From Ruminococcus sp. (GTDB lineage Bacteria > Bacillota > Clostridia > Oscillospirales > Ruminococcaceae): a DNA stretch of 64,000 nt. The stretch is from positions 40,132-104,131 of the forward strand of contig NZ_JAFYYT010000009.1 of assembly GCF_017549005.1 (NCBI RefSeq), written 5' to 3'. A program made the position numbers and the translations under genes. This document shows, piece after piece, positions 35,018-60,002 of the stretch; position 1 is the stretch's first letter, and every line of letters begins with the position of its first letter. Below the pieces are notes generated by a model. The model had not been told where the DNA came from, did not search any database, and worked only from the letters and a program-made list of their open reading frames with translations.

Positions 35018-35033
35018 TTTCTTCCCGCCTTTC

Positions 35034-37835
35034 CTATGTGATTTCGCCAAGAGAGATGAAGCCGCCGTCCCAGCTGACCGTCATTGCCCCAAGGTCGGTA
35101 ACGACCCTTGTTCCGTCCGAATAATCTGTAGTTATGATATCGCCGTCCGCATGATAACCGGTAATATAGCAGTCCGAGACACTGCTCAGGAGCGGCTCGA
35201 GCATGGCGTAATCCTCTGCCGCTTTTCTGATATTGCCCTTATAATTGGCATAATACAGGAAATCAAGCTCTGTGTCTTTCAGTTCGCTTGTCTCCTCGTG
35301 AATCATATCGTAGCTGAGAGAGCTTCCGGTAGCCGCCGCCATGAGCATCAGCCTTTCGGGGTCGGGGCTTCCGTTGACAGCCTCCGCTGAATACGGTATA
35401 ACACCGTGCATTACCATCTGATAGAACGGGATATCCTCGTCAAAGAGGTCGAATCTGCCCGAATTCATGGGAACTCCCGTGATATGGCTGACATATGGGA
35501 GAGCATAGGCGTTTGCATTGTCTGCAAGTATGCCGCCCCCAAGCTTCTCCGTGACAGTCTCATAGCCCTCCGTAAGGAGCTTTTCCGCGCCTGCCCTTGA
35601 AATGCTCTTTTTGCCATAGTCTCCGTAAAGCGAGGAGGTAAGACTTGCGAGAGAAACTCCGCCGAGCCCTGCATTTGAATAGTTTTCGGCGATATCTCCG
35701 AAAACCTCACCGTAGCAGTCAGGAGTAAGCAGAGAAAGATTCTTTCTGAAACCGTCGGGTATGCCGTAAGCCCTGTCATAGCTGACTATCCTCGAATATG
35801 AGCCCGAAACCCTCACGGCTGTGTCCGAAAATGAGTAATAGCCGTTTCCCGAGCTGAAATCCCTGTTGTCGGAAACAGGGTACAGGCTGTAACCGCATTC
35901 GTCTATAAGGTCGGTGAGGCTGCGGAAGTCTCTTACTCCACCAAGCTTTCCCGAGGGCTTTGCGCCCTTGTCGACCTTGTTTTTTATACCGTCGTTGGTC
36001 CAGTTGCTGTAGGAGACGACCATATCGTCAACTCCGCGCTCTTTCAGCTCGCTTATTATGTCAGCTGCCTGCCCGAAATCTGTAACGGAGGTCCGAAACG
36101 AGAGCGGTATGCCGAGAACCGACTTTTTCTTCATAACTCCGCCGTAAAGTCCGAGATACAAAGGTGCTTTGTCCGCGCTGCTCCTTATCTTCACGCCCTG
36201 CTCTTCAAGGAGATACTGCCTGTATCTTGCAGCTATATCGGTATAATCAGCGCCTTTCTTCGCAATGGGGTAGTAGAGCAGCTCTATATCGTCCGATCTT
36301 ATCTTTCCCTTTTCAAAGACAGTGTACTTATCGTGGCTGTTTCCCGACATGTAAAATGTGTCCGTACCGCGGAGAATAAAGGTGAAATTGCAGATATTGT
36401 ACCTGCTTTTGGACTGTCCCGACACGTTTGCCGTGATATAAGCGTTGGAGTCGCCCTTTGCCGCGACCGCAAGGAGGGCGTTGCCCCCTCTTACTATGCC
36501 GTATACGGGCAGATATATCTGCTCCGTGAGAGCTCCCCTGTTCTGCGGTACAGCCGTTACATCGCTGCCATAGATACGCTGCTGATAGAGGTTCGTCTGC
36601 ATAGTCCTGCCGTTGTTGAAGCGCACAAGGGCTCCGCAGCCGTCGGGTATGACGAAATATCCCTCTTCATCGTCGGGAGCTGCTCCGAAGCTGCCAAGCA
36701 GTGTCATCTCAGTCGCTATGTTTTCAGGCTTTGATTCGGCTATCTCAGATATTTTCACCCTTGCCCTTAGGTGATCGTCCTCTATGGTATACTCCACAGG
36801 AACAGTAAAGCCTGCGTCTTTGTAGCCGTATATCACGCGGATACCGTTTTCGATATCGCTGACATTGAATACGCAGTCCTTATCGCTGCCCGAGCGGAGC
36901 ATATTATTGCCCGAACGGCTCATAGGTATGCCGTAGCGAAGCACATTCGACGAGCGCAGCTCGTCCGCTACAAGTCCCGTAGCAGTTGTATCCTGAGAAG
37001 CTTCGAGGGGCGACGACCACCATATAAAGCCGTTTTCCTTGTTCTCGATACCGAATGAGGCGCTCCTGTCGTCTATTATCATACGGAGCTTATCATTTTC
37101 CGCGCCGTAGCGGAAAGCTCCGAGGTAATGGCTGCCGTCGGCGGTCAGCCACGCAAAACCGCCCTCTGCGGACTTGTATATCCGCTTTCCGTCTTCTGTC
37201 CTGTCAAAGCTGTAGCTCTTGTCCGTGCCTTTCATATCACCGCGGAGGAACTCCAGCGTATTCTTGTCGGCAGACAAAAAGGCGTATTTGCTGTCAAGGG
37301 TGGAAACTATCTCCCTTATCCTTATGACTCTGCCGGTATCTTCATCGGTAAGCACGAAAAATCTTCCTGCGTCGCTGACATAGAGCTTTCCCTCGTCGCA
37401 TTTGACGCCGCTTCTGAATGAAGCCGCAGCTTTTCCGCTTTTACTGTCAATTATAACGAGCTCGCCCAGTTTTTTCAGCTCGTCTGCCTTGTCGGCTATC
37501 TTCTGCTGCTCGGAAGTATAGTCCTTTTTGCTCTTAGGCTTGCCGCCCACGGTCTCCCAGAGCTCATCTTCAATGTCCTTGCTCCTGAAATAAACATCGT
37601 AGCCGTCGCAATATCCTATCTTTTTAAGGTATCTGTCAGCGTCCTCCGCCGAAAGCTCGGCTTTCTCAACTGACTCCGAACGTTTGGACTTCTCGGTATC
37701 TCCGCCGCTTTCGGTTTCCGAAGCCGTATCGGACTGCACGGCTTTTCCTTCGCTGTCCGCATAGGCGCTGCCCGAAGCCGCCATTGAAGCCGCAATGAGC
37801 AGACAGAGCAGCGTTCTTCTTATCTTTTTGCCCAT
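35034..37835 (-). CDS. Large secreted DUF5696-type protein
   Basis: 933 residues with a signal peptide (1-27, ending ASGSAYA). A charged Ser/Glu/Asp-rich stretch follows to about 60. A beta-rich middle (to about 560) has repeated aromatic/Gly patterns. The last third is an alpha/beta region of TIM-barrel look (LYLGLYGGVMKKKSVLGIP, then SELKERGVDDMVVSYSNW and SDNRDFSSGNGYY). This resembles the DUF5696 family found next to sugar ABC genes in Firmicutes. A glycoside-hydrolase-like role is possible, but catalytic residues cannot be assigned by eye. No C-terminal anchor is seen. It lies between the YIP1-type gene and the second permease pair. Confidence 0.75.
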   Translation of the reverse strand: MGKKIRRTLLCLLIAASMAASGSAYADSEGKAVQSDTASETESGGDTEKSKRSESVEKAELSAEDADRYLKKIGYCDGYDVYFRSKDIEDELWETVGGKPKSKKDYTSEQQKIADKADELKKLGELVIIDSKSGKAAASFRSGVKCDEGKLYVSDAGRFFVLTDEDTGRVIRIREIVSTLDSKYAFLSADKNTLEFLRGDMKGTDKSYSFDRTEDGKRIYKSAEGGFAWLTADGSHYLGAFRYGAENDKLRMIIDDRSASFGIENKENGFIWWSSPLEASQDTTATGLVADELRSSNVLRYGIPMSRSGNNMLRSGSDKDCVFNVSDIENGIRVIYGYKDAGFTVPVEYTIEDDHLRARVKISEIAESKPENIATEMTLLGSFGAAPDDEEGYFVIPDGCGALVRFNNGRTMQTNLYQQRIYGSDVTAVPQNRGALTEQIYLPVYGIVRGGNALLAVAAKGDSNAYITANVSGQSKSRYNICNFTFILRGTDTFYMSGNSHDKYTVFEKGKIRSDDIELLYYPIAKKGADYTDIAARYRQYLLEEQGVKIRSSADKAPLYLGLYGGVMKKKSVLGIPLSFRTSVTDFGQAADIISELKERGVDDMVVSYSNWTNDGIKNKVDKGAKPSGKLGGVRDFRSLTDLIDECGYSLYPVSDNRDFSSGNGYYSFSDTAVRVSGSYSRIVSYDRAYGIPDGFRKNLSLLTPDCYGEVFGDIAENYSNAGLGGVSLASLTSSLYGDYGKKSISRAGAEKLLTEGYETVTEKLGGGILADNANAYALPYVSHITGVPMNSGRFDLFDEDIPFYQMVMHGVIPYSAEAVNGSPDPERLMLMAAATGSSLSYDMIHEETSELKDTELDFLYYANYKGNIRKAAEDYAMLEPLLSSVSDCYITGYHADGDIITTDYSDGTRVVTDLGAMTVSWDGGFISLGEIT

Positions 37836-40060: not shown

Positions 40061-40939
40061 TCACTCTTTGATGCCCGAATGTGCCATAGTCTCGATGACC
40101 TGCCTCTGAGCAAGCATGAATATGACTATAGGCGGTACGAGCATGAATACCGCTGCCGCCATTGCTACGCCTGCACGGGCAAGTCCCGAGGTGGCAGCCT
40201 GCGAGACTACTGTGGGAAGGGTCTTGTACTCCTCCCTGAATACCACCGAGCCTGTCTGTATGTTCCACGCCCCCTGAAATGCGAATATTATCAGGGTCAT
40301 GAGCGCAGGCTTCTGATTGGGTATAACTATCTGCCAGCATATGCGGAAAAGTCCTGCGCCGTCCACCTTTGCGGCTTCTATCATGGAGTCGGGCACCTGA
40401 CTTATGGACTGCCTCATGAGGAAAAGTCCCATGGGCGACGCCACCGCAGGGAAGATAAGCGCCATATAAGTATCTATCATGTGGAGCTTCGCCATAACTA
40501 TGTACTGCATTATGTATATGACGCTGCTCTGATAGAGAAGCGCTATTACTATTATGCCGTTCAGCAGTTTGCTTCCCGGGAACTTGCACTTTGCAAGCAC
40601 GAATGCCGCCATTGACGAGAATACGCACTGCAATACCGTTACCGCCGCAGTCACAAATATGCTGTTGAACACATAACGTGAGAACGGTACGCGGTTCTGA
40701 TGGAGCACACGGAACATATCCCTGAAATTGTCAAGGGTGGGTCTTACTGCGTAAAGCTTCGGCGGGAAAACGAAAAGCTCCTCAACGGGCTTTACCGACA
40801 TTACTATCGTAAGGTATATGGGCAGCACCATGAAAAGTCCGAGTATCGCAAGAAGCATGAATATACTGATACTTCCGCCGAATTTTCTGCCTGCCTGTCT
40901 GTTTGAAGCGCGAAGCTTCGCAACGTCTGTAACTGCCAC
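40061..40939 (-). CDS. Carbohydrate ABC permease, MalG type (first pair)
   Basis: 292 residues, six membrane helices, EAA loop DSMIEAAKVDGAGLFRICWQIVIPNQKPAL. It starts with GTG after AAGGAGG. It pairs with the MalF-type protein encoded 12 bases upstream. No ATPase gene is in the operon. Confidence 0.92.
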   Translation of the reverse strand: MAVTDVAKLRASNRQAGRKFGGSISIFMLLAILGLFMVLPIYLTIVMSVKPVEELFVFPPKLYAVRPTLDNFRDMFRVLHQNRVPFSRYVFNSIFVTAAVTVLQCVFSSMAAFVLAKCKFPGSKLLNGIIVIALLYQSSVIYIMQYIVMAKLHMIDTYMALIFPAVASPMGLFLMRQSISQVPDSMIEAAKVDGAGLFRICWQIVIPNQKPALMTLIIFAFQGAWNIQTGSVVFREEYKTLPTVVSQAATSGLARAGVAMAAAVFMLVPPIVIFMLAQRQVIETMAHSGIKE

Positions 40940-40951
40940 AGCTTCGCCTCC

Positions 40952-41890
40952 TTAGTCCATATATTTGCCAAGCGCCTTGCTGATGAGCTTGTTGCAGACG
41001 AACATGGCAGCGAAGAGTATAAGGCATATCGCCGAAGCATAGCCCATTTCAAATCTCTGCCAGCCGTAGTCGAAGGCGTGGGTCATTATCGTATGCGCCT
41101 TGTAGTCCGTACTCGGGAAGCCTACAAGGTTCTGAGCAACAGTTCCTGCGGTGAACGAGCTTACTATCTGCATTACCGCCGCGAACATGAGCTGAGGTCC
41201 CATTGACGGGATAACGATGTAAATGAGCTCCTGCCAGCGTGTGCGGATACCCTCGATAGCTCCCGCCTCGTACATGGAGCGGTCAATATTCTGAAATCCC
41301 GCACGAAGCGCAAGAAATCCTGCGCCCAGCGATATCCACAGCTGCACAACTATCGTGACGCCAAGCACGTATCTGCCGTCCGTAAGCCACTGCACAGGTG
41401 AATTGATGATACCGAGATTTATGAGGAAGGAGTTCATGTAGCCGTTCATATCGCCGCTGAAAATGAGCTGCCATACCGTGTATACGTTGGCCATTGAGGG
41501 CGCGTAGAATATCAGCGTAAACAGCGTTTTCAGCTTCGGGTGCATCTCGTTTATCATCCATGCCAGCAGGAAACACAGCACGTAGCTGACAGGTCCCGTA
41601 AGCAGGGCGAATACCAGCGTTACCCTTATCGAGCGTATGAATATCTTGTCAGAAAGAAAGAGCGTGGTGAAGTTGGAAAGTCCCACATATTTCGGCGGAC
41701 GGACCATGTCAAAGTCCGTGAAGCCCATAGGCAGCGACATCAGCACAGGCACTACGGTAAAGACTATGAAGAATATCATAAAGGGCGCTATCATGCCGTA
41801 ACAGGCTTTGCTGCGCTTTATATCGCGCCAAAGCGTACCGCGCTTTTCCTTTTTTATTCTTTTTCCGGTATTTTCAGCGGAAACTGCCAC
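40952..41890 (-). CDS. Carbohydrate ABC permease, MalF type (first pair)
   Basis: 312 residues, six membrane helices after a basic N-terminus (GKRIKKEKRGTLWRDIKRSK). The EAA loop is RSMYEAGAIEGIRTRWQELIYIVIPSMGP. The GTG start has AAGGAAG upstream. It lies downstream of the solute-binding gene, separated from it by a hairpin-rich spacer (41976-42047) that could set a higher expression for the binding protein. Confidence 0.92.
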   Translation of the reverse strand: MAVSAENTGKRIKKEKRGTLWRDIKRSKACYGMIAPFMIFFIVFTVVPVLMSLPMGFTDFDMVRPPKYVGLSNFTTLFLSDKIFIRSIRVTLVFALLTGPVSYVLCFLLAWMINEMHPKLKTLFTLIFYAPSMANVYTVWQLIFSGDMNGYMNSFLINLGIINSPVQWLTDGRYVLGVTIVVQLWISLGAGFLALRAGFQNIDRSMYEAGAIEGIRTRWQELIYIVIPSMGPQLMFAAVMQIVSSFTAGTVAQNLVGFPSTDYKAHTIMTHAFDYGWQRFEMGYASAICLILFAAMFVCNKLISKALGKYMD

Positions 41891-41975
41891 CTATTTCACT
41901 TCCTTTACGTTTTAACCGAGGCGGATATTACCTGTCTATTAAAGTAACGCCTTCTCTTGCAAGGCGACTTCGTAT

Positions 41976-42047
41976 TTTGGGGCGCTGCCCCAAACCCTGC
42001 AAGGGCTGTCAGCCCTTGACCCGACCAAAGGGGTGTAAACCCTTTGG
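41976..42047 (-). repeat. Cluster of three hairpins in the binding protein-permease spacer
   Basis: TTTGGGGC/GCCCCAAA-type (41976-41994), CAAGGGCT/AGCCCTTG (42000-42018) and CCAAAGGG/CCCTTTGG (42025-42047) stand in a row. This is GC-rich and unlike nearby spacers, suggesting a dispersed repetitive palindrome unit that also stabilises the upstream mRNA. Confidence 0.65.
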
Positions 42048-42063
42048 AATCCCAGGTTTAACC

Positions 42064-44985
42064 TCAGTTGAGTCCAAGATTTTTACGCTTTCGCGTTATT
42101 TCGTCGTTTATGTCCTTATTGTACCATATCAGCGTATCACGGGGGTTATTATGCTCGTTTATGGTCTCTCTGAATGCGTTCATTATATTCCGCGTCACCG
42201 CATATGAGGCAGGAGTTACGGGTATCTCCTCAAGCTCTGCCTGCTGTGCGCGAAGCCGCTCAAGCTCGCCGTTCGACCACGACATACGCCCGAGAGCTTC
42301 AACATTGGCAGTATCGAACCGTCCCAGAGTTCCCAGAAGTCCCTCTATCTGAGAAGCGTACTGCACCTGCGTCTCCGTATCAGTGAACCACTTGACGAAC
42401 TCCCACGCATTTTCCTTGTTTTTCACCTTGCTGAATATCACAGCTCCTGCGCCGTTTGAGTTTGCCGCGTGTGATACGGTACCGTCGGCTCTTTCAGTTC
42501 CGGGTACGGGACAGAAGTCCCACAAGCCCTTTATCTCGGGAGAAGCAGCCGTAAGCTGGTTGAAAAAGGTATAATTTGCGATAACTATGGGATATTCCCC
42601 TGTTCTGAAACGGCTGAATGCGTCGTAGGTCTGCTCGAAGCAGTAGTCCGTGTAGAAATCCGTCCACTCCTCAAAGGACTGCACCGCTTCTATAGTATCA
42701 AGGGACGAAGCCGTCAGGTCTTCATTATAATAGGTCTTCCCCTTTTGCAGCAGAAGCATGGCAAAGGTATGACCTGCCTCCGTCGCAGGAGAGATATTAT
42801 TCGGCGGAAGAACAAGTCCAACCGACATATAGTTCCTTTGTAGGGCTGGGAGCATATCCCTGAGCTCCGACCATGTCTCGGGAGGCGAGAAGTATCCAAG
42901 CTCCGTGAGCACGTCCGTGCGGTAGAACATCATCGGGAAGGACTGGCTCAAAGGCAGTCCGTAGCAGCCGCCGTTGTAGGTATACTGCGTCATGGCGTTC
43001 CTCTGAAAACGCTCCCTTACCTCGCCGAAGTCATCAAACTGCGACAGATCAACAAGGAGATCACGGGCAGCAAGGTTCACAGGGAACTCTCCACCGAGGA
43101 AAAGCGCAACATCAGGCCCTTTCCCTGCAAGTGAAGCCTCCACCACTCCGCCTGTGACAAGGTTCACGGAAACAGGTATGCCCGTTTCCTGCATGAAGCG
43201 GTTCTCAGTCATTTCCTTCACAACCTGTGCCTGATCGCGTCCCAGTGAGACCCATACCTCCATAGCCTCCTCGTTCTCAACATCGGAAAGGGTGGTATAG
43301 TCCTCGAAAAAGGAGCCGATAAAGGCGTCAAGTCCGAATTTCAGCGACTTTCCAAGCTTCTCATCACAGCTTGAGAACTCCCTGTCGGCAGTAGCAAATT
43401 CAATGTAATCAATTTCAAGGGGCTGGTCGCGGTTATCCCTCATCCATGCGGAAAGAGATGTGATACTGTCCTTTATCTGGCTTAGATACGAGGGGATACG
43501 CAGAGGCTTTTCCGTGCATTTGTCCAGTATCACAGCCATATTCTCCAATGCAGCCGCCTCTGTGCCCTTGCTCCCGGCAAGAGCCTCTATGCCGCTCTGA
43601 ACGTCTTTCAGCTCCGCGGAAATGCTGCCGAACCTTTCTACAAGCCCCGGTATCTTTTCATGTACATAATAATCCGTGTATTTATCGGGAGAAGGTCCCG
43701 TTATCATCAATACCTTCCGGTAATAAGTGTTCAGCTCCCTGACTACGCCCTCGAGACGGCGGAGATACTCGCCGATATCGCCTGTTACGGCTTCAAGGGA
43801 GATAGTGTGGGGCATTCCGCCCTCCAGCCATACATATACGTAATCGCCGCCGCTTTCCGGAGTTACTACCGACCAGTCCGTATCGTAGGCGAACTCGACG
43901 CGGTCAAGCTCCCTGCATGGAACTTTTCCGTCGATATAGATACGCCTGTTGGAGTCAAAGCCGCGTATCTGATCCTGACGCGCCTTTATGCCTATCTTAT
44001 ACCAGCCGCCCGAACCGATATCCTCCTCGGGTATCTCCCATGTAACGGTTTGCAGAGCCTTTTTCCAGCTGCCGCTGCCAAGGGTGTTGTACACCATTTT
44101 ACGTGGGTCGGCAGGCGAAGCAAGGTAACTGCTGTTGTCATAGGTAGGATAAAGCGTGGGGTCGGACTTGTACAGGGCGCTTTCGCCCTCTATCCTGAAC
44201 AGAGCGGATGGCGTTCCGCCAATGGTCTGTTCAGTCGCCGCAGAAGCCGCATATTCGCTGTATGCGGGGAGTTCCTCAGGATTGAAAAGCTTTATGCGTT
44301 CAATGGCGAGCTGTGCCCTCTCGGAGCTGAAACGCAGCTCATGCTTTCCCTTTTCGAGATAAATGAACAAAGGCTCGCTGAAAAGTCCGTCAATATCGCC
44401 GAATACCGAGCTTTTCCACACAGGGCGCTGCACCTGGGCGGGACGCACCTGATTTCCGCGTATATCCGTGTATATCTCATGCTCATCCGTCCATACTCTG
44501 CTTAAAGTCATGCGTGAAGCCGTATCGTAAGGGAGCTTCCCGTCTATCTCCATTTTCAGCTCTATATCGGGACTTCCCGACAGCATGGGGCAGTAATCCG
44601 CAGAAATGCAGTAGTTGCCCGTTTCCTTTACGTCGAGGCCGAAAACTATACTTCCGTCGGCGCTGTTCCAAAGAATGACGTTATTTCTGGTCTCGCCGTC
44701 ATCGGAGGTGAAGCTGCCCGTGGTGATATCGCCGTTCTCAACTGCCGAGATATCGCTTTTATCAAGAATTATCTCCTTATCTGGGCGGTTTTCGCCCGAA
44801 TACTTATCATAATACTCGCTGAAAGTGAGAAGTCCGCTGTCAAATGGCTCAATGCTGTAATAATCCGCGGTCAGTGCCGCAGATACAGTGTTTTCAGCTC
44901 CGAAGGCGCATAAAGGAGCTGCTCCGGAAGCCGCAAGCTGCAAAGCCATTGCCGCCGAAGCTATCCTGCCTATTGGTAATTTCAC
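42064..44985 (-). CDS. Giant extracellular solute-binding protein with N-terminal carbohydrate-binding-like domains
   Basis: 973 residues, about twice a normal sugar-binding protein. A signal peptide (1-30, ending APLCAFGA) has no clear lipobox. Two beta-sandwich-like regions (about 75-240 and 265-400) resemble galactose-binding/CBM folds (e.g. GNYCISADYCPML, GKHELRFSSERAQLAIERIKLF). A helical linker (400-590) follows. The last part (about 595-960) is a MalE-type domain: MQETGIPVSVNLV, GKGPDVALFLGGEFPVNLA, PETWSELRDMLPAL and ENAWEFVKWFTDTETQVQYA. It is first in the operon and captures a ligand for one or both permease pairs. The GTG start follows AAAGGCGGTGA. Confidence 0.88.
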   Translation of the reverse strand: MKLPIGRIASAAMALQLAASGAAPLCAFGAENTVSAALTADYYSIEPFDSGLLTFSEYYDKYSGENRPDKEIILDKSDISAVENGDITTGSFTSDDGETRNNVILWNSADGSIVFGLDVKETGNYCISADYCPMLSGSPDIELKMEIDGKLPYDTASRMTLSRVWTDEHEIYTDIRGNQVRPAQVQRPVWKSSVFGDIDGLFSEPLFIYLEKGKHELRFSSERAQLAIERIKLFNPEELPAYSEYAASAATEQTIGGTPSALFRIEGESALYKSDPTLYPTYDNSSYLASPADPRKMVYNTLGSGSWKKALQTVTWEIPEEDIGSGGWYKIGIKARQDQIRGFDSNRRIYIDGKVPCRELDRVEFAYDTDWSVVTPESGGDYVYVWLEGGMPHTISLEAVTGDIGEYLRRLEGVVRELNTYYRKVLMITGPSPDKYTDYYVHEKIPGLVERFGSISAELKDVQSGIEALAGSKGTEAAALENMAVILDKCTEKPLRIPSYLSQIKDSITSLSAWMRDNRDQPLEIDYIEFATADREFSSCDEKLGKSLKFGLDAFIGSFFEDYTTLSDVENEEAMEVWVSLGRDQAQVVKEMTENRFMQETGIPVSVNLVTGGVVEASLAGKGPDVALFLGGEFPVNLAARDLLVDLSQFDDFGEVRERFQRNAMTQYTYNGGCYGLPLSQSFPMMFYRTDVLTELGYFSPPETWSELRDMLPALQRNYMSVGLVLPPNNISPATEAGHTFAMLLLQKGKTYYNEDLTASSLDTIEAVQSFEEWTDFYTDYCFEQTYDAFSRFRTGEYPIVIANYTFFNQLTAASPEIKGLWDFCPVPGTERADGTVSHAANSNGAGAVIFSKVKNKENAWEFVKWFTDTETQVQYASQIEGLLGTLGRFDTANVEALGRMSWSNGELERLRAQQAELEEIPVTPASYAVTRNIMNAFRETINEHNNPRDTLIWYNKDINDEITRKRKNLGLN

Positions 44986-47616: not shown

Positions 47617-48228
47617 TCAGCTTGTGAGGAAGTCCCATAATCCGTCGTAGCCTGCGTTTGACATTATAACGTCCCATAACAGGAAACCTATCACGATAGT
47701 GAATACGCTGATTATGATACCTGCAATAGCAAAGCCCTTTCCGCCCTTGACTATCATTCCCACGATTCCGAATATGATTCCGAGTACTGCAAATGGAAGT
47801 CCGCCGACATAGGCACAAACTCCGCCAAGAAGCGAAAGTATACCCATTACAAGCGAAGTTATGCCGAATCCTGCCCCACTCTCCTTGCGCTGAAGGTTCT
47901 GAGGGTCGTATGGGTTGAGCATCGGCGGCGGATATGCGCTGTAGGGCTGATTATAATACGGCGGCGGAGCTCCCTGAGGAGGTCCGTACTGCTGGGGATA
48001 ACCGCCGTAAGGCTGTCCGTACTGAGGAGGCGGTCCCTGCGGAGGGCCATACTGCTGAGGATAGCCGCCGTACGGCTGCCCGTACTGAGGCGGTGCGCCC
48101 TGCGGCTGGGTATACTGCTGCGGAGCGCCGTTTACAGGCTGAGAGCCCTGCGGCGTTTCATTTATCTGAGCGTTGGTGTTATCGTAACCACCGTAATCAA
48201 TATTCTGATCTGTGTTATTATTATCCAT
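47617..48228 (-). CDS. DUF4190-type small membrane protein with Pro/Gln/Tyr/Gly-rich N-terminus (copy 1)
   Basis: 203 residues. Residues 1-110 are low-complexity, with two perfect copies of PPQYGQPYGGYPQQYGPPQG. Two or three membrane helices follow (about 118-190) in the DUF4190 pattern (GITSLVMGILSLLGG, LGIIFGIVGMIVKGGKGFAIAGIIIS). The ATG at 48228 follows AAGGAGG. It resembles the proteins at 50796 and 51819 in plan. The function is unknown. Confidence 0.82.
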   Translation of the reverse strand: MDNNNTDQNIDYGGYDNTNAQINETPQGSQPVNGAPQQYTQPQGAPPQYGQPYGGYPQQYGPPQGPPPQYGQPYGGYPQQYGPPQGAPPPYYNQPYSAYPPPMLNPYDPQNLQRKESGAGFGITSLVMGILSLLGGVCAYVGGLPFAVLGIIFGIVGMIVKGGKGFAIAGIIISVFTIVIGFLLWDVIMSNAGYDGLWDFLTS

Positions 48229-48256
48229 AGCAGCCTCCTTGTGCCAATTTTTCATA

Positions 48257-48285
48257 ATTATATCATAACACGATAAAAATGTCAA
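48257..48285 (-). promoter_or_regulatory. Consensus sigma-A promoter of DUF4190-type copy 1
   Basis: On the minus strand TTGACA, 17 bases, TATAAT, about 29 bases before the start codon. Confidence 0.9.
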
Positions 48286-48302
48286 CAATCCCCGTATAAA
48301 GT

Positions 48303-50795: not shown

Positions 50796-51308
50796 TCAAG
50801 TGAACAATGAAACAAATGAAAATGCAAAGGCCATTGTCAGCACAGCTATAACTATAGTGATAATACTGAGAACAACGCCTGTTATAGCCATTCCCTTGCC
50901 TGCGCCCTTCTTGAGTCCTACTGCGCCGAGGATAAGTCCTATGACAGCGATGATTAATGCAATCAGATGAAAACAGCATGATAAAAGTATAGCCAGGATA
51001 CCGAGTATCATAGAAGCTATGGAGAGACCTATGCCTTCGTCAGTCTGCTGCAAGCCGTTACCGTTATTGGTCATCTGTCCGTAGAACTGCGGAGCCTGAC
51101 CGTAGGGCTGTTGACCATATGGCTGTCCGTAGGGTATCTGACCGTTGGGCTGTCCGCCCTGCTGATAGTTCTGCTGTGCGTTGGACTCTCCGCTCATAGG
51201 GGCAACAGGTCCGTTCTGCTGCTGTGCGTTCGGAGCGCCGTTCTGCGGGACCATAGGCTCGCCGTTCTGCTGTCCTTCCTGCTGTCCGTTATTGTAATTA
51301 TTATCCAT
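50796..51308 (-). CDS. DUF4190-type small membrane protein with Gln/Asn/Gly-rich N-terminus (copy 2)
   Basis: 170 residues. The first 90 are low-complexity (YGQPYGQQPYGQAPQFYGQ), followed by two hydrophobic segments (about 98-125 and 140-168) with the internal LGAVGLKKGAGKGMAITGVVLS pattern typical of DUF4190. The ATG at 51308 follows GGGAAGG. The N-terminal MDNNYNN is shared with copy 3. Confidence 0.82.
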   Translation of the reverse strand: MDNNYNNGQQEGQQNGEPMVPQNGAPNAQQQNGPVAPMSGESNAQQNYQQGGQPNGQIPYGQPYGQQPYGQAPQFYGQMTNNGNGLQQTDEGIGLSIASMILGILAILLSCCFHLIALIIAVIGLILGAVGLKKGAGKGMAITGVVLSIITIVIAVLTMAFAFSFVSLFT

Positions 51309-51382
51309 AATAATACCTTCCCGTGAATAAAGTAGCGATATCATGGCATTTCTGCCTTTACAGCAATATCGCAGTGTAAAAG

Positions 51383-51818: not shown

Positions 51819-52202
51819 TTACTTGATGAAAAGAGCTGACTGTTGTGAATATTCCTTCAGCCATTCAGTCAATGATTCAGCAGAATCCTTTAATACAACT
51901 AAAAGGATAATGTTGATTATTACTAATACAAGACCAACGATACCGCAAACGATACCTGCGATAGCCATACCCTTGCCGTCCTCGTCGTTCTTTCTTGACA
52001 GGTAGCCAAGTACGAGAGCAACTATTGCAAGAGGAAGACCGAGCCAGATCCAGCAGCAGCCGGGAATGACAGAACAGATACCTGTTACCATTGAGCCTAT
52101 AGCCTTGCCCTTGGAACCACCCTGAGGCGGCATGCTTCCGTTGTACGGATCCATAGGAGCCTGATTGAACTGACCGTTCTGATTGTTGTAATTATTATCC
52201 AT
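51819..52202 (-). CDS. DUF4190-type small membrane protein (copy 3)
   Basis: 127 residues. The hydrophilic N-terminus is short (MDNNYNNQNGQFNQAPMDPY). Two membrane segments follow with the pattern LAIVALVLGYLSRKNDEDGKGMAIAGIVCGIVG. A soluble tail ends SQQSALFIK. It is first in an operon with the DUF2752 gene. An AGGGAGG site lies before the ATG. Confidence 0.85.
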   Translation of the reverse strand: MDNNYNNQNGQFNQAPMDPYNGSMPPQGGSKGKAIGSMVTGICSVIPGCCWIWLGLPLAIVALVLGYLSRKNDEDGKGMAIAGIVCGIVGLVLVIINIILLVVLKDSAESLTEWLKEYSQQSALFIK

Positions 52203-52268: not shown

Positions 52269-52334
52269 TAGAAAGCGCAAAAAATATCAAAAAAAGTTAT
52301 TGACCAATATAAAAAGTATATCAATACAGTAAAA

Positions 52335-52364
52335 GGGCGCAGCCGTTTTTCCGCAGCTGCGCCC
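52335..52364 (-). terminator. Terminator of the second ABC operon
   Basis: GGGCGCAGC/GCTGCGCCC stem. On the minus strand CTTTTACTG follows. Confidence 0.8.
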
Positions 52365-52409: not shown

Positions 52410-54884
52410 TCAGCTCTGCTCACTGAGGATAAGTGAGATACGTGTCTGGAGAAGGTCGATAGCCTCGTCAGCTGTCTTCTCGCCCTTCATGTAAGCCATG
52501 ATCTCTTCCTCGAGGATAGACTCCATATCAGGGTCAAAATCGCCCATTAACTGAGTGGTGTTCATGATATAATCCGAAAGGAAGTCTACCTGCTCCTGTG
52601 AAAGGGGCTTAACGTCTACCTGCTCCTGCTTCTTGTCATCATAGTAGGAATACTCGTATTCCTGCTTCTTGCCGTTATTGTCATAGTAGTAAGGCTTGTT
52701 CATGCACTTGTTGAGCTGTCTCTCAAAGTTCTTCTTCAATGCAGACATACCGAAGCTGTAACGTGAATAGCCTTCCTTCTCGTCCTCATCTGTCTCTTCC
52801 TTGAAGTTGTCCTTGATGAGCTCCCAGCAGAGATCCTTGTACTGTGAAGTCGTAAGGATAGAGAATGTGGTGTTAAACATCATTACAGAACCCTGGCCCT
52901 CATTGCATGGGTAGCCGATAAAGGTAATAGGATCCTTTGCGTACTGACCGTTGAGCTCTCCTACAAGCTCACTCGGCTCATAAATGTATAATGCATCGAG
53001 GAGCACCTTGTCGGAATTGAATGCTTCAGAACCATAGTACTCGTCCATTTCCGAATAATATTCCTCAGCCTCCGGATCGCCGTCTTCAAATTCCTTGCTG
53101 GGCTCGAATGAGTCGATGAAGTTGAGGAGCTTCTTGAACTCGGGATCGTCAAAATGGCACTTGCCGTTCTCATAGTCGATAAGGCTTGCGAATGAGTGCA
53201 TGAGTATCGACATTATGGAATCTCTTGTATCTGTTCCCAGAAGATGTGTTTCCTTGTTGGAACGGTTCTCATATGCATCGATGAGCTCGTCGGCTGTCCA
53301 TCTTTCCTTGTCGATGTTCTTCTTCTTTGCTACAAGAGTGCTGATCTGGAATGAAGATGTGAGTGAAAGGAGCTTGCCGTCGACCTCACAGGCTTTGAGT
53401 ACGTTCGGCATAAGGTCTTCCTTCTTGAGGTCGGAATCCTTGTCGAGCATCTCATAGAGGTCAACGAAGAGGCCCTTCTTGCCGAGGCTCTTTGTGAGGA
53501 CATTGCTGCTGCCGCAGATCATATCGGGAGCGTCGCCCGAAATGATGTCCTTCTTGAGCTGGCTTGCACCAAGCTGCTGGTATGTTCCGTTTTCCTTGTC
53601 ATATTCGTCGAACTTGCTGTAATCAACGATCTTGAAGCGAACGCCGTCGTGAGCCTTGTTGAACTTCGATACCTGCTCTCTGATCTCCCAGTCGCCGTTG
53701 AGAGCACCGATAGTGATGATCTTTGTATTCTCTATCTCGGAAGCGTCGCGCTGTGTAAGTCTGTAGAAGGTGCTGCCGCCCTTTGACGAAGAATAATCGT
53801 TGTAAAGCACGACATACTCGCCGTTGTCCATGGCAACAATGGAGTTTACGCCGCCGTCGCCCAGGTCGGAGTCGAGCCAGTTGATGATCTCATCAGATGA
53901 ACCGTCGTCCTTGATTCCGTAAAGTCCAGAAGAGCTGAGCGAAAGGAGCTTGTAATCGCCTGAACCGGGATAGAAGGTTCCGTACATTACGTCGCTCATA
54001 TTGTCGCCGTCTATCTCCTGACCTGTAGGCTTGAGAGTCTCAGCATCAACGAAAGCGACCTTCATGCCGTTCTTTTCATAGCCGTTAACGATAAGTGTCT
54101 TGGCGTCAAGCAAAGATATGCCGTAAACGTATTCAAAGTCGGGGAAATCCACCTCTTCCTTGACATTTCCGTCCTTGTCAAGAAGAACATATGTCTCTCC
54201 CATGCCGCCGTATATCTCAAGGATAGCTCTGCCGCCGCCGCAGGGAACAAGACGTCCGACGTTGGCGCCGATGCCCTTTGCGTACTTAGAGTCCTCGTCT
54301 TCTTCAACGTATTCATCAAGGCCTGTGATCTCCTTCTCGAGCTTTACATTGCCGTCAAGGTCGATCACATAGAGCTTGTTGCTGTACTTTGCGTTCTTTT
54401 CAACTTCTTCCTGATATTTTTCCCAGTCAAATTTCTCATAATCAAAGTCGGGATCGTCGAAATCAGGTCTCTCCATATCGCCGTAATCAGTGAAAGCAAC
54501 CATTGCGTAGATATCTCCCTCGGGAGAAACAGAAGCGTTCACATTGGCTTCGACCTTTTCCTTGTCAACGCCGAGGTCAAACTCTACAGCCTCTATATTG
54601 GAAAATTCGTTGTCTGTCTTGTATATCTTCTGCTCGCCGTTTTCATAATCATAGCCGAGCAGTACGATGGTGTTCTCGTCAACCCTGTACATAGAGTCCA
54701 CAGAATCCACATCAGCGTCCATTTCAACAGCGCGGTAGGAAGTTGCCATGAGATTCTGCGTATCCTTTGCCTTGCCGTTCTTATTGTTGTTCTGCTTCTT
54801 TTCACCGCATGATACAGCCGAACCTGCCATTACCATAACAGCGGCAGATAATGCTGTTATCCTTCTTAAAACTGACTTTTTCAT
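52410..54884 (-). CDS. Lipoprotein joining a probable beta-propeller to a solute-binding domain
   Basis: 824 residues. The signal ends AGSAVSC with Cys26, a plausible lipid anchor, then a Lys/Asn-rich spacer. Residues about 48-385 contain repeated four-strand patterns (VDSMYRVDENTIVLLGYDYENGEQKIYK, KTLIVNGYEKNGMKVAFVD, VNSIVAMDNGEYVVLYND in blocks) that look like propeller blades. From about 395 a MalE-type domain follows (KIITIGALNGDWEIREQVSKFNKAHDGVRFKIVDY in blocks, SGDAPDMICGSS, ERWTADELIDAY). It is last in an operon with permeases, an HlyD-type adaptor and a MacB-core protein. AAGAGG precedes the ATG. The ligand is unknown. Confidence 0.82.
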   Translation of the reverse strand: MKKSVLRRITALSAAVMVMAGSAVSCGEKKQNNNKNGKAKDTQNLMATSYRAVEMDADVDSVDSMYRVDENTIVLLGYDYENGEQKIYKTDNEFSNIEAVEFDLGVDKEKVEANVNASVSPEGDIYAMVAFTDYGDMERPDFDDPDFDYEKFDWEKYQEEVEKNAKYSNKLYVIDLDGNVKLEKEITGLDEYVEEDEDSKYAKGIGANVGRLVPCGGGRAILEIYGGMGETYVLLDKDGNVKEEVDFPDFEYVYGISLLDAKTLIVNGYEKNGMKVAFVDAETLKPTGQEIDGDNMSDVMYGTFYPGSGDYKLLSLSSSGLYGIKDDGSSDEIINWLDSDLGDGGVNSIVAMDNGEYVVLYNDYSSSKGGSTFYRLTQRDASEIENTKIITIGALNGDWEIREQVSKFNKAHDGVRFKIVDYSKFDEYDKENGTYQQLGASQLKKDIISGDAPDMICGSSNVLTKSLGKKGLFVDLYEMLDKDSDLKKEDLMPNVLKACEVDGKLLSLTSSFQISTLVAKKKNIDKERWTADELIDAYENRSNKETHLLGTDTRDSIMSILMHSFASLIDYENGKCHFDDPEFKKLLNFIDSFEPSKEFEDGDPEAEEYYSEMDEYYGSEAFNSDKVLLDALYIYEPSELVGELNGQYAKDPITFIGYPCNEGQGSVMMFNTTFSILTTSQYKDLCWELIKDNFKEETDEDEKEGYSRYSFGMSALKKNFERQLNKCMNKPYYYDNNGKKQEYEYSYYDDKKQEQVDVKPLSQEQVDFLSDYIMNTTQLMGDFDPDMESILEEEIMAYMKGEKTADEAIDLLQTRISLILSEQS

Positions 54885-54887
54885 AAA

Positions 54888-56090
54888 TTACCTCTTTTTC
54901 TTTTTTATTTTTGAACTTTCTTTTGTCTGCTCACTTTCTTTTTCTGAGCTTTTCTCTTTTACGATCTCCTCAGACTTTTGTTTTTTATCTCTTATCCTTC
55001 TCGTTTTTGACGAGAAGAACCTCTCTATAGCGTCTTTAAGATCATCTTTGTTTTGCCTGAACCTTTTATATGCCAATGCAAGCAGACATATAAACGTTAT
55101 CAGCGGTATAGCAAGGAGGAGCCTGCGTCCCCCGTAGATGAATGAAAGCCTGAGCTCCGTCAGCCTTGAAGCGTTCTCCCAGAACGGATAAACAACGCTG
55201 TCGTTCCTGACGATGTATCTGTCAAGCTTTTTCAGAGCCTTTACCCTCTTTGACGGCAAAAAGCGCTCCGCATTGTTTACAATGCTGATATTTCCCTTAT
55301 ACGCCTCGGCTAACTGTCCTTTTACCGAGTTATAAGCGAAATGCTCAACAGGTTCGGGAATGGCACATTCATAGCAGGTGACCTTCGTGAACTCGGGTTC
55401 CCTTTGCTCTGAGCCTTTCCACATATCAGAATATGCAGAGCCGAATATCGGTCCTGCGGCTTTATAGGTTATATAAGCCCGCGGAATATCGTCTATGCTC
55501 TTCTTTTCGGGCTTGGTGCCGGGAGTATCTATAACTCCCGAGATATACATCTCTTCACCGTTTATGTACAGCTTTTCTCCTGCGATCTCTACCGAGCCGT
55601 AAAGCCGCCATGCAAGCTCCTTGTCAATGACAGCTCCGTCCTGCAGGAAGTTCCTGTCAGAGAAAAATGAGCCGTTAAGGAGCCCGAAACCTCTGAACAG
55701 GAAGAAATCTCCTCCCACAACAGTGACTTTCGCCTGTGACTGCCCGTTTCTGTCGCCTGATACAGTTGCAGTTCCTGCGTCGGCGCTGTAGGCGTGGGGA
55801 ACTATGTCCTCCCCTTCCCCCGGTATAACCGAAACGCTTTTCAGCGAGCTGTAGATCTGATTTTTCACGCCTGCGGCTGCATTTTTGTCAAAGCCCGAGT
55901 CCGCGCTGAAAAAGCAGCTTACCTGTCCGTAGTCGTAATCGCTGCCCTTCTCTATGCGCTCAGCGGTGAAGTTGTACTTCTGCGATTCCGCAGCGCTGCC
56001 GCCTGCCGCCGTGAGTATGACCGCTCCGATGATCGCCGCGGCGTTAAGAGCCGCAATGAACATCTGTCCGAATTTGTATCTGTTCCTCAT
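54888..56090 (-). CDS. MacB-like periplasmic core protein without FtsX helices
   Basis: 400 residues. One helix at the N-terminus (about 10-30), an extracytoplasmic domain (35-315) and one helix (about 323-342), then a Lys/Glu/Ser-rich cytoplasmic tail (345-400). The outer domain follows the MacB/LolC core plan: VVGGDFFLFRGFGLLNGSFFSDRNFLQDGAVIDKELAWRLYG, then GEKLYINGEEMYISGVID. A full MacB or FtsX-type permease would have four helices and three of them after this domain. Here only one is left. It lies between the HlyD-type adaptor and the lipoprotein gene with 3-15 base gaps, so it is probably part of the same complex. Confidence 0.72.
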   Translation of the reverse strand: MRNRYKFGQMFIAALNAAAIIGAVILTAAGGSAAESQKYNFTAERIEKGSDYDYGQVSCFFSADSGFDKNAAAGVKNQIYSSLKSVSVIPGEGEDIVPHAYSADAGTATVSGDRNGQSQAKVTVVGGDFFLFRGFGLLNGSFFSDRNFLQDGAVIDKELAWRLYGSVEIAGEKLYINGEEMYISGVIDTPGTKPEKKSIDDIPRAYITYKAAGPIFGSAYSDMWKGSEQREPEFTKVTCYECAIPEPVEHFAYNSVKGQLAEAYKGNISIVNNAERFLPSKRVKALKKLDRYIVRNDSVVYPFWENASRLTELRLSFIYGGRRLLLAIPLITFICLLALAYKRFRQNKDDLKDAIERFFSSKTRRIRDKKQKSEEIVKEKSSEKESEQTKESSKIKKKKR

Positions 56091-56105
56091 AAGGTCAGCA
56101 CCGCC

Positions 56106-57833
56106 TTATTTATCCTTCATGCGGACCTGATCCCCTGGTTCAACTAATTTGCTTGCAGCAGTGATAACGTAATCTCCTCTGTTGAGACCGCCTGATACTG
56201 CATAGGATATCTCATCCTCAGCTTCGACGTTAACGCTTACCTTTTCAGCGTAGTAACGGTTGCCGAGAGGGGTATTCTTTGAGCTTACCATAAGCACATA
56301 CGGCTCTGTTGCAGGGCCGCAGAGAGCGCTTCTCGGGATAATGGCGTCGTATGTACCGCTTCCGCACGGAACAGAGAGATCAAGTCTGTCACCTGAGTTG
56401 ACCTCGCCTGAGATCGTGTATATGAGCATCTTTTTCCTTGCGCCTGCGGAGCTGTTCTTTATCTCCTTGAGAACGGCTGTGATATCGCTGCCGTAGCTGT
56501 TGGTTATATCAGCCTCAGAGCCGACCTTTACCTTCTTGACCTTTTCGGCGTCAAGGCCGTCAAGGGTCACGGTGAAGCCCTCGGATATGATGTCTATAAC
56601 TGCCGCAGCAACGCCTTCGGTCGCCTTGTCGTCAAGCTTTACGTTTATGGAGCTTACAACGCCGTCGTATTTCGACTTTATCTCTGTAGACTCCGACTCT
56701 GTTTTGAGCTTGTCATACTTTTCCTGGAGCTTGTCGAGAGCCTTTTTCTCGGCCTGGAGGTCGAGCGCCTCGGACTGCGAGGTTTTTGAATCTGTTTTCT
56801 TTGTCTTGTCGAGGTCAATGATAGCCTCTTCAAGCTCGTTCTGCTTTGCTTTTACGGATTCCGCAAGAGTATCATAGCTTTCGGACTTTTCGCTGCCGTT
56901 TTCAGAGTTGTATTCATCTATAGCGGCTTTGAGCTCGTCGATCCTGTTATTTGCCTCGCTCATTCTTGAAGCAAGACCGTCGCGGACGCTTTTCTTTGAC
57001 TGGTCGTAGGTGTCCTTTGCTGTATTTCTCTCAGCTTCCTTTGCCTCCATCTCAGCCTTTGCGCGCTCGGCATTGTCGCTCTCGGCTTTCTCGAAAGCCT
57101 CACGGGCTGCCTGATATGCTGTCTCGGCACTGTTCCAGGCCGCACAGAGGGAAGTAAGATCGCCTGCAAGCTCCACGTCAGCTTCCATATAGTCGTCCAT
57201 ATCTATGCACCTTATGGTCGATGAAAGCTTTGCGGCCTCATTCTCCAGCTTTTTCAGCTCTGCGCTGTTGTTTCTGTAGGCTTCTTTTGCAGCGGCAACA
57301 TTGCCCTCGTTAGCCTTTGCTGCGTCCCTCTTGTTTATGAGGTCGTTCAGCTCATTCCTGAGATTCCTTATCTTCTGATTGTCCTTTGTATAGTCCGCAG
57401 GCTCGACCTTGAGTAGATTCTTCTCATAGGAGAGCTTTGCGGTCTCGAGAGCTTCCTCAGCAGCGTCGAGAGCTTCATTGCTCACGGTGTTGACGGTGAA
57501 GAGGACATCTCCCTTTTTGACCTCCTGACCTGACTTTACGTGTATCTTCTCGATAGTCCTGTTGCCGTCTATCATGACCTCATAGGACTGATTCGACTCC
57601 ACGTAGCCTGTCTGCCTGATCCTCTCGATGAGCTTTCCGGAGCCTACCGACTCGGTGGAGATCTCGGCGAGGGATCTGTTCATTATCGTGTTTGAGAAGA
57701 AAGTGAGCACAAGCATTATTGCAAGAAATATAATAATGAGCGTCTTTATCAGCTCTCTTCTCCTTGCGGGGGACATTTTTTCTTTTTCGTCCTTTTCCGC
57801 AAGTATATCCTTAACTTCTTTTGTTTCGTTCAT
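56106..57833 (-). CDS. HlyD/MacA-type membrane fusion (adaptor) protein
   Basis: 575 residues. One N-terminal helix (about 28-47) is followed by a beta-barrel/lipoyl strand block (SGKLIERIRQTGYVESNQSYEV, VKSGQEVKKGDVLFTV). A long coiled coil (about 115-395) is rich in Glu, Ala, Lys and Leu. The second lipoyl half is YDGVVSSINVKLDDKA, and closing beta-barrel segments include the VLMVSSKNTPLGNRYYAEKV type. In Gram-positives such adaptors usually serve MacB-type exporters. Here it lies between MalF/MalG importer-like permeases and the FtsX-less MacB-core gene. AGGAGC precedes the ATG. Confidence 0.88.
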   Translation of the reverse strand: MNETKEVKDILAEKDEKEKMSPARRRELIKTLIIIFLAIMLVLTFFSNTIMNRSLAEISTESVGSGKLIERIRQTGYVESNQSYEVMIDGNRTIEKIHVKSGQEVKKGDVLFTVNTVSNEALDAAEEALETAKLSYEKNLLKVEPADYTKDNQKIRNLRNELNDLINKRDAAKANEGNVAAAKEAYRNNSAELKKLENEAAKLSSTIRCIDMDDYMEADVELAGDLTSLCAAWNSAETAYQAAREAFEKAESDNAERAKAEMEAKEAERNTAKDTYDQSKKSVRDGLASRMSEANNRIDELKAAIDEYNSENGSEKSESYDTLAESVKAKQNELEEAIIDLDKTKKTDSKTSQSEALDLQAEKKALDKLQEKYDKLKTESESTEIKSKYDGVVSSINVKLDDKATEGVAAAVIDIISEGFTVTLDGLDAEKVKKVKVGSEADITNSYGSDITAVLKEIKNSSAGARKKMLIYTISGEVNSGDRLDLSVPCGSGTYDAIIPRSALCGPATEPYVLMVSSKNTPLGNRYYAEKVSVNVEAEDEISYAVSGGLNRGDYVITAASKLVEPGDQVRMKDK

Positions 57834-57886
57834 ATCAATGCTCCTTACGAAAGAATAGCTCCTGTTGATGTGTATTTATCTTTATA

Positions 57887-58792
57887 TCAGCCCTTGATAC
57901 CGCCCGAATAGGTTATTCCCTCGATGAGGTAATCCTCTCCGTAAAGGAACATGAGCACCGTCGGTATCATATATACCGTTCCCACTGCAAAGGCAAGTCC
58001 TATATCTCCCGTATTTATCTCTGAGAGGAACACCGAAAGCGGATGCAGGGTATTGTTTTTCATAAGTACGATAGGCTGCTCGACCATATTCCAGTAGTCG
58101 ATGAAAACAAGCATTGCTATAGACACTATCGCGCCCTTGCATAATGGCATATATATCTTTGTGAGTATCTTCAGCTCGCTTGCTCCGTCAAGCTTTGCAG
58201 CTTCGACATAGGAAACAGGTATCCTCTTCATTACCTTCGTCAGCAGGAATATGCTGAACGGCGAGAATATGGCGGGAAGTATCACAGCCTTTCGCGTATC
58301 GAGCATATCAAGCTTGTCTGCAACGAGGAAATTCGGTACGAGCGTTACCTGATAGGGCATTATCATAAGGATTATGTACGCGAAGAAGATAATGCTCTTG
58401 AATTTGTTTGGATATCTCGAAAAACCGTATGAAGCAAGTATCGCTACGAGTATCTGGAACACTGTTATGGGAACTGTGAGTATCACAGAGTTCCAGAACT
58501 TCATGAGATAATCCGAATTCTGTATCAGTACAGCCTTGTACTGGTCGAACGTGACCTTGTCGGGTATGAATTTCAGGTTGACGTCATCGGCAATAAATAC
58601 CTTTTTCTTCTCGGTCATGTTCGAGAACATCGCGCCGTAGTTGGCGGAGATCTCGTTTGACGTCATAAACGAGTTCGCAATGGTGAGCACTGTGGGCATA
58701 AGGAACATCAGCGCCGCAAACAGTATGAATATCAGTACGCAGCCGTTGAACATCCTGCGCCTGTTTCTCAGTCCGAACAATCTTCTTCTCAT
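57887..58792 (-). CDS. Carbohydrate ABC permease, MalG type (second cluster)
   Basis: 301 residues, six helices, with a long first outer loop (about 45-95) and the EAA loop PVSYVEAAKLDGASELKILTKIYMPLCKG. The ATG at 58792 overlaps the stop of the MalF-type gene (TGATG). A longer frame beginning at 59083 runs through that gene and is an artefact. Confidence 0.92.
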   Translation of the reverse strand: MRRRLFGLRNRRRMFNGCVLIFILFAALMFLMPTVLTIANSFMTSNEISANYGAMFSNMTEKKKVFIADDVNLKFIPDKVTFDQYKAVLIQNSDYLMKFWNSVILTVPITVFQILVAILASYGFSRYPNKFKSIIFFAYIILMIMPYQVTLVPNFLVADKLDMLDTRKAVILPAIFSPFSIFLLTKVMKRIPVSYVEAAKLDGASELKILTKIYMPLCKGAIVSIAMLVFIDYWNMVEQPIVLMKNNTLHPLSVFLSEINTGDIGLAFAVGTVYMIPTVLMFLYGEDYLIEGITYSGGIKG

Positions 58793-59679
58793 CAGCTCTC
58801 CACATCCTTTCCGAATATGTTCTCGGCAACGAGAAGAACTGCCATGATAACTATCATGAGAAGCGCAAGCAGCACAGCTGCCGCCGAAAGCTTCTGATAA
58901 TCGAGACTGTTGAAGGTGTTGTTCATGAAGTGCTGAAGCATATACAGCTTGTCCTGAGGATAATTTCCTGTCAGGAGGTATACCTCGCGGAATATCTTGA
59001 AGGAGTTTATCATGGAAAGTATCAGCACGAAAAGGATAGTCGGAGAAAGGTATCTCAGCTTTATATGTATGAACTTGTACCATGCTCCCGCGCCCTCCAG
59101 CTCGGCAACCTCGATTATGTCACGGGGTATCGCACAAAGGGCAGCCATGAAAAGTATCATGTTGTAGCCTAAGTTCTTCCACAGGAACATACATATTATA
59201 ACAAGCTGTCCGTAAGGGGACTTTATCCAGTCTACAGGCTGTCCGCCGCAGGCCTCGACTATCTGGTTGACAGTTCCGTGGTTGTGGAAGAGTACCTGCC
59301 ATACAAGTACTACGGAAGCCGTCGGCACCATGAGTGGACTCAGGAAGAACGTCCTGAAAACGCTCTTGCCGGGAATATTCCTTTCAAGCAGCATTGCAAG
59401 CCCCAGTGATAACACAACAGCAAGGGGGACCGATACCAGCGAGAAGAACGCAGTATTCTTTGCCGCCTTTGTAAACGCCTCATTGCTGAAAAGCCTCGTG
59501 TAGTTCTCAAGGCCGACGAAATCCTTCAGCACGGGATTGTTTATTAAGGAATAGTATATTACGATACAGAACGGAACGAGAAAGAAGAGCATGACTCCCA
59601 GAAAACTGGGAAGTATACAGACATTGCTGAATATCCTCTCTCCCCTTCTTCCGCACTGATCTCTGGTTTTGTTTTTCAT
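58792..59679 (-). CDS. Carbohydrate ABC permease, MalF type (second cluster)
   Basis: 295 residues, six helices, EAA loop PRDIIEVAELEGAGAWYKFIHIKLRYLSP. It is the first gene of the five-gene operon. GAGGTTGTG lies 6-8 bases before the ATG. No ATPase gene is in the operon. Confidence 0.92.
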   Translation of the reverse strand: MKNKTRDQCGRRGERIFSNVCILPSFLGVMLFFLVPFCIVIYYSLINNPVLKDFVGLENYTRLFSNEAFTKAAKNTAFFSLVSVPLAVVLSLGLAMLLERNIPGKSVFRTFFLSPLMVPTASVVLVWQVLFHNHGTVNQIVEACGGQPVDWIKSPYGQLVIICMFLWKNLGYNMILFMAALCAIPRDIIEVAELEGAGAWYKFIHIKLRYLSPTILFVLILSMINSFKIFREVYLLTGNYPQDKLYMLQHFMNNTFNSLDYQKLSAAAVLLALLMIVIMAVLLVAENIFGKDVES

Positions 59680-59973: not shown

Positions 59974-60002
59974 ATAATACAACTTTGACAAAGGCTTGTC
60001 AA
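59974..60002 (-). promoter_or_regulatory. Sigma-A promoter of the second ABC operon
   Basis: On the minus strand TTGACA, 17 bases, TATTAT. The spacer and -35 form a near-palindrome (TTGACAAGCCTTTGTCAA), a possible operator. Confidence 0.82.

Follow-up and report, generated by a model that had tools for sequence, protein, structure and literature searches.

A five-gene operon of a gut Ruminococcus sp. (NCBI RefSeq assembly GCF_017549005.1, contig NZ_JAFYYT010000009.1) joins two sugar-importer permeases, an HlyD/MacA-like adaptor, a MacB periplasmic-core protein, and a binding lipoprotein, and this five-gene block is deeply conserved. It lies in a stretch of 64,000 nucleotides (positions 40,132 to 104,131 of the forward strand of the contig), which we call the window; coordinates below count from its first letter. 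We consider it probable that the operon encodes a CUT1 importer, in which MalF and MalG use a shared UgpC/MsmX-type ATPase, carrying a fixed extracytoplasmic module related to MacAB. The genes are as follows.

58792..59679, minus strand: MalF-like permease, 295 amino acids, PF00528 (BPD_transp_1) at 66.4 bits (cut-off 26.4), with an EVAELEGA form of the EAA motif; placed by the tree in the HlyD-linked MalF group
57887..58792, minus strand: MalG-like permease, 301 amino acids, PF00528 at 41.8 bits (over the cut-off), with an EAAKLDGA motif and a WNMVEQP motif
56106..57833, minus strand: HlyD/MacA-like adaptor, 575 amino acids, one N-terminal membrane helix
54888..56090, minus strand: MacB periplasmic-core protein, 400 amino acids
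52410..54884, minus strand: binding lipoprotein, 824 amino acids, lipobox cysteine C26

The initial annotation of this region described a five-gene operon in which importer permeases are combined with an HlyD adaptor and a MacB core free of FtsX helices, and that description holds: all five genes lie on the minus strand between 59679 and 52410, and Pfam assigns the families (PF00528 twice, PF13533, and PF12704, no PF02687, and a binding protein just under its cut-off). The successive gaps are -1 base (MalF and MalG overlap at TGATG), 53 bases after MalG, 15 bases after the HlyD-like gene, and 3 bases after the MacB-core gene.

The same annotation proposed conservation of gene order as a check, and homologues proved not to be scattered. 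Within the genus, a MacB-core match is found in 32 of 36 genomes; of the four others, G010 carries the adaptor at the end of a contig, and no adaptor was matched in G012 (98% complete), G028, or G032 (73%). MalF, MalG, HlyD, and MacB stand in this order in 31 of the 32 genus loci (L037 to L068), the contig of L067 starting just before MalG, and the binding protein follows the core in 30 of 32, with none in L054 and a contig end in L067. In L054 (G020), two genes of 614 and 630 amino acids with weak matches to the ATPase model stand after the core instead. Across 92 loci searched with five models, the four genes occur in order and on one strand in 77 and in another order in one (L196); in the remaining 14, the four genes are partly covered or absent or the core is missing. 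Two of these loci, L031 and L056, are identical in sequence and are both counted here and in the helix count below, and L188 and L189 are two abutting segments of one place. Window-type MalF rows in the tree come from nine families of Clostridia.

Most of these loci were picked by their MacB match, so that MacB is present by construction, and one further locus set was picked by CbpC-like or MacB matches, except for the ATPase region of the host; a search based on MalG served as the reverse test. A MalG profile match of at least 411 bits occurs in 31 of 394 order-level genomes, all 31 of which have a MacB-core match, on the same contig in 28 and on a different one in G250, G277, and G303. Two genomes, G424 and G187, have a MacB-core match without such a MalG, and both MacB genes are near a contig end. 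Among 20 further MalG-selected loci (18 with a weaker MalG), in which the labels include weak scores of 14 to 27 bits, an HlyD-like gene is found in 19 and a MacB-like gene in 13, and for this reason we regard MalF-MalG-HlyD as the most constant core. With the MacB-core profile itself, matches at 3e-28 or better number 29 among 394 order-level genomes and 17 among 291 class-level genomes, with the host in both sets. The score gap under this value is no clean border. Below it are genomes that belong by their gene neighbourhood (G187, G353, and G050) and operons of the related kind treated in the next paragraph, as well as two loci (L203 and L204) that look like ordinary MacAB sets.

The MacB-core protein scores 39.7 bits against MacB_PCD (PF12704; cut-off 27), and the Pfam search found no FtsX domain (PF02687) in it. 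Its architecture is a first helix, the core domain, a WENASR stretch, a second helix, and a basic tail; W304, E305, and N306 are invariant in 34 alignment rows, and a pattern search with the WENASR stretch misses many of the more distant members. Based on a simple hydropathy rule, two helices, one on each side of the core, are present in 74 of 78 window-type MacB rows. The remaining four (L036, L130, L149, and L164) show one helix, L036 and L149 being cut by contig ends and L130 start-trimmed. Eight related operons (L189, L190, L193, and L195 to L199) instead encode a MacB-like protein to which this rule gives four or more helices, none with an FtsX match, and that of L199 is below the MacB_PCD cut-off. 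In the MalF tree, which is flagged both for long branches in the ordinary permeases and for places where long branches meet, the HlyD-linked rows split from the ordinary ones with support of 98/95, and the two-helix MacB systems form one group within them (39 rows, 100/100). The two-helix MacB is, on this sequence evidence, a derived state, and the simplest reading would be that a fuller MacB-like protein joined the importer first and that helices were lost later.

Two other origins for these parts were considered and rejected. The initial annotation had raised the possibility that the adaptor and core pair with a complete MacB elsewhere in the genome. The host does have a complete MacAB-like set (L266), composed of an HlyD-like protein of 483 amino acids, a nucleotide-binding domain protein of 239 amino acids, and a MacB of 448 amino acids, but this set has its own adaptor and ATPase, and we therefore do not regard the HlyD and MacB of the window as its orphan parts. 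Open frames of about 1,200 amino acids in relatives had suggested that MacB and the binding protein are fused; the fetched loci show two separate frames.

The permeases carry the marks of an importer. An EAA-type motif is detected by a strict pattern in 78 of 82 MalG and 69 of 80 MalF sequences, and in an NCBIfam search the MalF and MalG of the window reached no equivalog cut-off. The MalG proteins of the HlyD-linked group have a WN(M/I)VEQ motif and an extended outer loop, which in the MalG of the window connects helices 1 and 2, whereas the five ordinary MalG proteins of the host that were compared have neither the long loop nor WNMVEQP; we suggest that the loop and motif may be a docking site. 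The host genome has 13 BPD_transp_1 matches and five MalF/MalG pairs besides that of the window, and the fetched stretches around those five pairs contain no HlyD- or MacB-like gene and, by a model built from six UgpC-type ATPases, no UgpC-like ATPase. In the window itself, two more CUT1 pairs (33047-37835 and 40064-44985) have as neighbours putative binding proteins of great length, 933 and 973 amino acids, without HlyD or MacB.

The initial annotation also stated that no ATPase is present. This is true of the operon, a state normal for the CUT1 pairs of this host, but not of the genome, whose one OB_MalK match is a stand-alone ATPase of 372 amino acids that scores 492 bits against the UgpC model (cut-off 432); an OB_MalK match was likewise found in 19 of 22 same-genus genomes searched. 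When the six-ATPase model was run on 118 loci and ATPases were counted at >480 bits, a UgpC-like ATPase was found in 7 of 78 window-type loci (L134, L136, L138, L140, L143, L146, and L148), in 2 of 14 related loci (L193 and L198), and in 3 of the 20 MalG-selected loci (L248, L253, and L261), that of L253 being on the opposite strand with one further gene in between; the model also recovered the stand-alone gene of the host. Curated models confirm the ATPases of L138, L143, L146, L193, L198, and L248 and the stand-alone one of the host. With a single stand-alone UgpC/MsmX-type ATPase in the host and copies inside the operon in relatives, the absence of an ATPase from the operon is explained, and we take the core of the operon to be an importer engine of the type I (CUT1) kind. 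Homology gives good support to this view, and gene content shows the link to the ATPase. Excerpts of the literature agree with a shared ATPase, in that Bacillus has multitask ATPases (PMC5730181, PMC7658222) and the ATPase gene of Clostridium thermocellum transporter B is outside its cluster (PMC9601137).

HlyD-type adaptors and MacB cores are otherwise known as components of export or mechanotransmission systems. The adaptor of the window matches Biotin_lipoyl_2 (PF13533, the first lipoyl half) at 37.0 bits (cut-off 29.8) and falls below the cut-offs of PF13437 (16.5 bits, cut-off 22.2) and of NCBIfam RND_mfp (66.0 bits, cut-off 94.9); its profile matches MacA (5nik) at E 2.9e-5. About 270 residues separate the two lipoyl half-motifs, which would accommodate a hairpin of two helices of about 135 residues each; at 0.15 nm per residue, its length would be about 20 nm. 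The window-type adaptors are 463 to 790 amino acids long (median 589.5, n = 76), those of seven related operons from 420 to 596 (median 435), and some in the 20 MalG-selected loci span just 131 to 152.

The fifth protein was described initially as a propeller-fused binding lipoprotein. The lipobox cysteine C26 is invariant in 32 rows, and SBP_bac_1 matches the window protein at 25.9 bits (cut-off 26) and 29 of 32 binding-protein rows at E 0.1 or better. The nearest solved structure to the C-terminal domain is CbpC (7x0o; E 4.7e-20 over profile positions 379-791). The propeller is weakly supported: Pfam gave no propeller match to the N-terminal domain of the window protein, and among 32 relatives SGL matched two (best E 5e-4), Reg_prop two, and a third propeller family one; a beta-propeller is a possible fold for this domain. 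The domain is optional, because the short binding protein of L065 does without it. In 70 four-gene window-type loci, a count that leaves out L031 and L056, the binding protein lies downstream in 48 and upstream in 11; 3 loci have one on each side, and in 8 none was placed. Among these 8, L158 has one downstream that the overlap rule missed, L133 ends at a contig edge, and L139 begins near one. In family f67 (L163, L165, L166, and L167), no binding protein of the window's family was found next to the core, which is followed instead by a transglutaminase-like gene in L163 and by a GH5 cellulase gene in L166.

The likeness to CbpC leads to transporter C of C. thermocellum. CbpC belongs to the four-gene operon Cthe_2125-2128, according to an excerpt of PMC8303734, and in PMC9601137 the transporter clusters named in the legend of Fig. 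1 include an "acra" adaptor (AcrA) gene, which is probably Cthe_2127. With CbpC as the query, the best match was at 34% identity and none was near-identical. A table in PMC11212667 gives sub-micromolar binding of several sugars by CbpC in an earlier study, whereas the relevant excerpts of PMC9601137 report a blocked pocket, no binding of any tested sugar, and normal growth of a transporter C mutant on glucose, cellobiose, and Avicel.

Two sites flank the operon.

59974..60002, minus strand: promoter-like site, TTGACA-17-TATTAT, agreeing with the consensus at 11 of 12 positions and lying about 294 bases ahead of the start of MalF; alone not significant
52331..52364, minus strand: terminator-like hairpin followed by a T run; the full stem was read in the sequence, and the scan gave its inner part

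That the five genes form one transcription unit, as initially proposed, agrees with their tight spacing. Between 50000 and 64000, on both strands, there are 32 promoter-like sites against 23.8 in shuffles (standard deviation, 5.3) and 20 terminator-like sites against 12.3 (standard deviation, 3.6), a mild excess in each case, so that the case for a single promoter-terminator pair rests mainly on the gene spacing. An RNA leader ahead of MalF was considered and dropped, as an Rfam search 5' of MalF found no family; elsewhere in the window, Rfam places an S10-Clostridia ribosomal protein leader at 30825-30902 on the minus strand. On the 3' side of the operon are three small proteins (51819-52202, 50796-51344, and 47617-48288) with proline/glutamine-rich starts and hydrophobic stretches, the first of which matches DUF4190; close relatives carry similar genes after the operon. 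In L160 and L161 (G603 and G643), GntR-like and ABC-ATPase-like genes and genes for 724 to 731 amino acids, named from their opening residues only, reach the MalF frame on the same strand.

In total, these observations are consistent with a mechanism in which the lipoprotein would bind a solute, most likely an oligosaccharide released from plant fibre, which stands first among the candidates; hints to the substrate are the likeness of the binding domain to CbpC and the presence of GH94 in L164, GH5 in L166, and a pectate-lyase-like gene in L137. We posit that a ring of adaptors would rest on the MacB core together with MalG's long outer loop, above the mouth of the permease, where it would dock the binding protein and pass the solute to MalFG, with ATP hydrolysis by the shared ATPase driving uptake. 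More tentatively, we can picture an import machine with an extramembrane conduit, in which the MacA-like hairpin of about 20 nm, mounted on a helix-stripped MacB core, would guide oligosaccharides through the thick wall to MalFGK. Such a machine would be a tripartite pump turned to uptake that spread through the Clostridia by stepwise reduction of MacB; we hold this fuller version to be possible but doubtful.

Several points weigh against an oligosaccharide importer with a fixed module. HlyD adaptors are otherwise known from export; a MacB-like gene went undetected in 7 of the 20 further MalG-selected loci, and in L261 no HlyD could be detected. Clusters for ribosomally synthesized and post-translationally modified peptides (RiPPs) contain, or lie close to, some of the related operons or binding proteins, so sugar is not general. 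The blocked pocket of CbpC is a further point on this side. Could the four genes then be neighbours without a joint function, the HlyD and MacB-core genes being remains of an exporter that came by chance to lie beside a sugar importer? Apart from the 7 loci without a detected MacB-like gene, only the odd mix itself speaks for this. The order is kept in nine families, the MalF group tracks the link to HlyD, every part is under constraint, and the host's other pairs lack HlyD and MacB in the stretches fetched; we rejected chance adjacency on these grounds and consider it very improbable.

Two further readings keep the genes together and change their purpose. In one, the operon is a sensing device: the loaded binding protein and MalFG would undergo an ATP-linked change of shape, which the MacB core and HlyD would relay outward, either to wall enzymes, as in FtsEX, or to a two-component system. 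In favour of this, MacB and FtsX are mechanotransmitters, and histidine kinase and response regulator genes stand beside the operon in L188, L190, L198, and L199 (all eight confirmed by Pfam), with look-alike pairs, judged by their opening residues only, near at least L055 (in the same genus, on the opposite strand), L157, and L158. The blocked CbpC pocket and the normal mutant described in excerpts of PMC9601137 also fit a sensor. Against it, the EAA motifs and the in-operon ATPases indicate a working importer engine, and the open reading frame list of the window shows no recognised kinase gene next to the operon. The initial suggestion of substrate sensing linked to cell-surface remodelling found no direct support; it is kept in play by the two-component systems of the four related operons, and we judge a sensing device unlikely. 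In the other reading, to which we give lower weight still as an improbable one, the system would take up or export a RiPP or a wall-derived peptide, and its likeness to sugar importers would be merely ancestral. CcpM maturase genes (TIGR04068, over the cut-off) and TIGR04066 genes accompany CbpC-like binding proteins in L187 (G452), L191 (G485), and L194 (G480), and in G480 and G452 the operon is on the same contig as the RiPP genes, about 10-25 kb away. In L248 (G344), adjoining genes encode a CcpM-like protein (499.9 bits, cut-off 500), an exporter-like protein of 567 amino acids, MalF, MalG, a short HlyD-like protein (20 bits), and the UgpC ATPase. RiPP genes were not recognised in the open reading frame list of the window, the genus loci not having been searched for them, and the GH94, GH5, and pectate-lyase-like neighbours of other loci point away from a peptide. 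The same setting, a CbpC-like binding protein in a RiPP cluster, was also noted for L248, L192, and L259; L192 gave only an S8-protease-like match under its cut-off, and the gene tested in L259 gave no match.

The CUT1 importer with a MacAB-related module remains the reading that we favour. A search of open-licence papers found no description of HlyD and MacB-core genes joined to a sugar-type importer as a class, in agreement with the initial remark that the mix is unlike any known transporter class. That the union is fixed across nine clostridial families suggests an uptake architecture for which no class description was found. Such an architecture may account for the behaviour of transporter C, which takes its name from cellodextrins but in one study (PMC9601137, in excerpt) did not act like an importer of them.

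Among known systems, CUT1 importers that share an MsmX/UgpC-type ATPase, for example in Bacillus subtilis and in C. thermocellum transporter B, resemble the operon in having a MalF/MalG pair, a binding protein, and no ATPase in the operon, with a single stand-alone one of the UgpC type elsewhere in the genome. They differ in that the window operon adds HlyD and a MacB core, which the host's five ordinary pairs do not have, that its MalF falls in a group of its own, and that the outer loop of its MalG is longer. MacAB-type tripartite pumps and their Gram-positive kin share the HlyD/MacA-like adaptor and the MacB periplasmic core; in contrast to them, the window system has no MacB ATPase, no FtsX domain, and only two helices, and stands beside importer permeases. 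Transporter C (msdC1, msdC2, a further gene, and cbpC; Cthe_2125-2128) shares the nearest solved binding protein, a four-gene operon, and the acra entry of the figure legend, but the excerpts describing it name no MacB core, and the CbpC chain of 438 amino acids is without the extra N-terminal domain.

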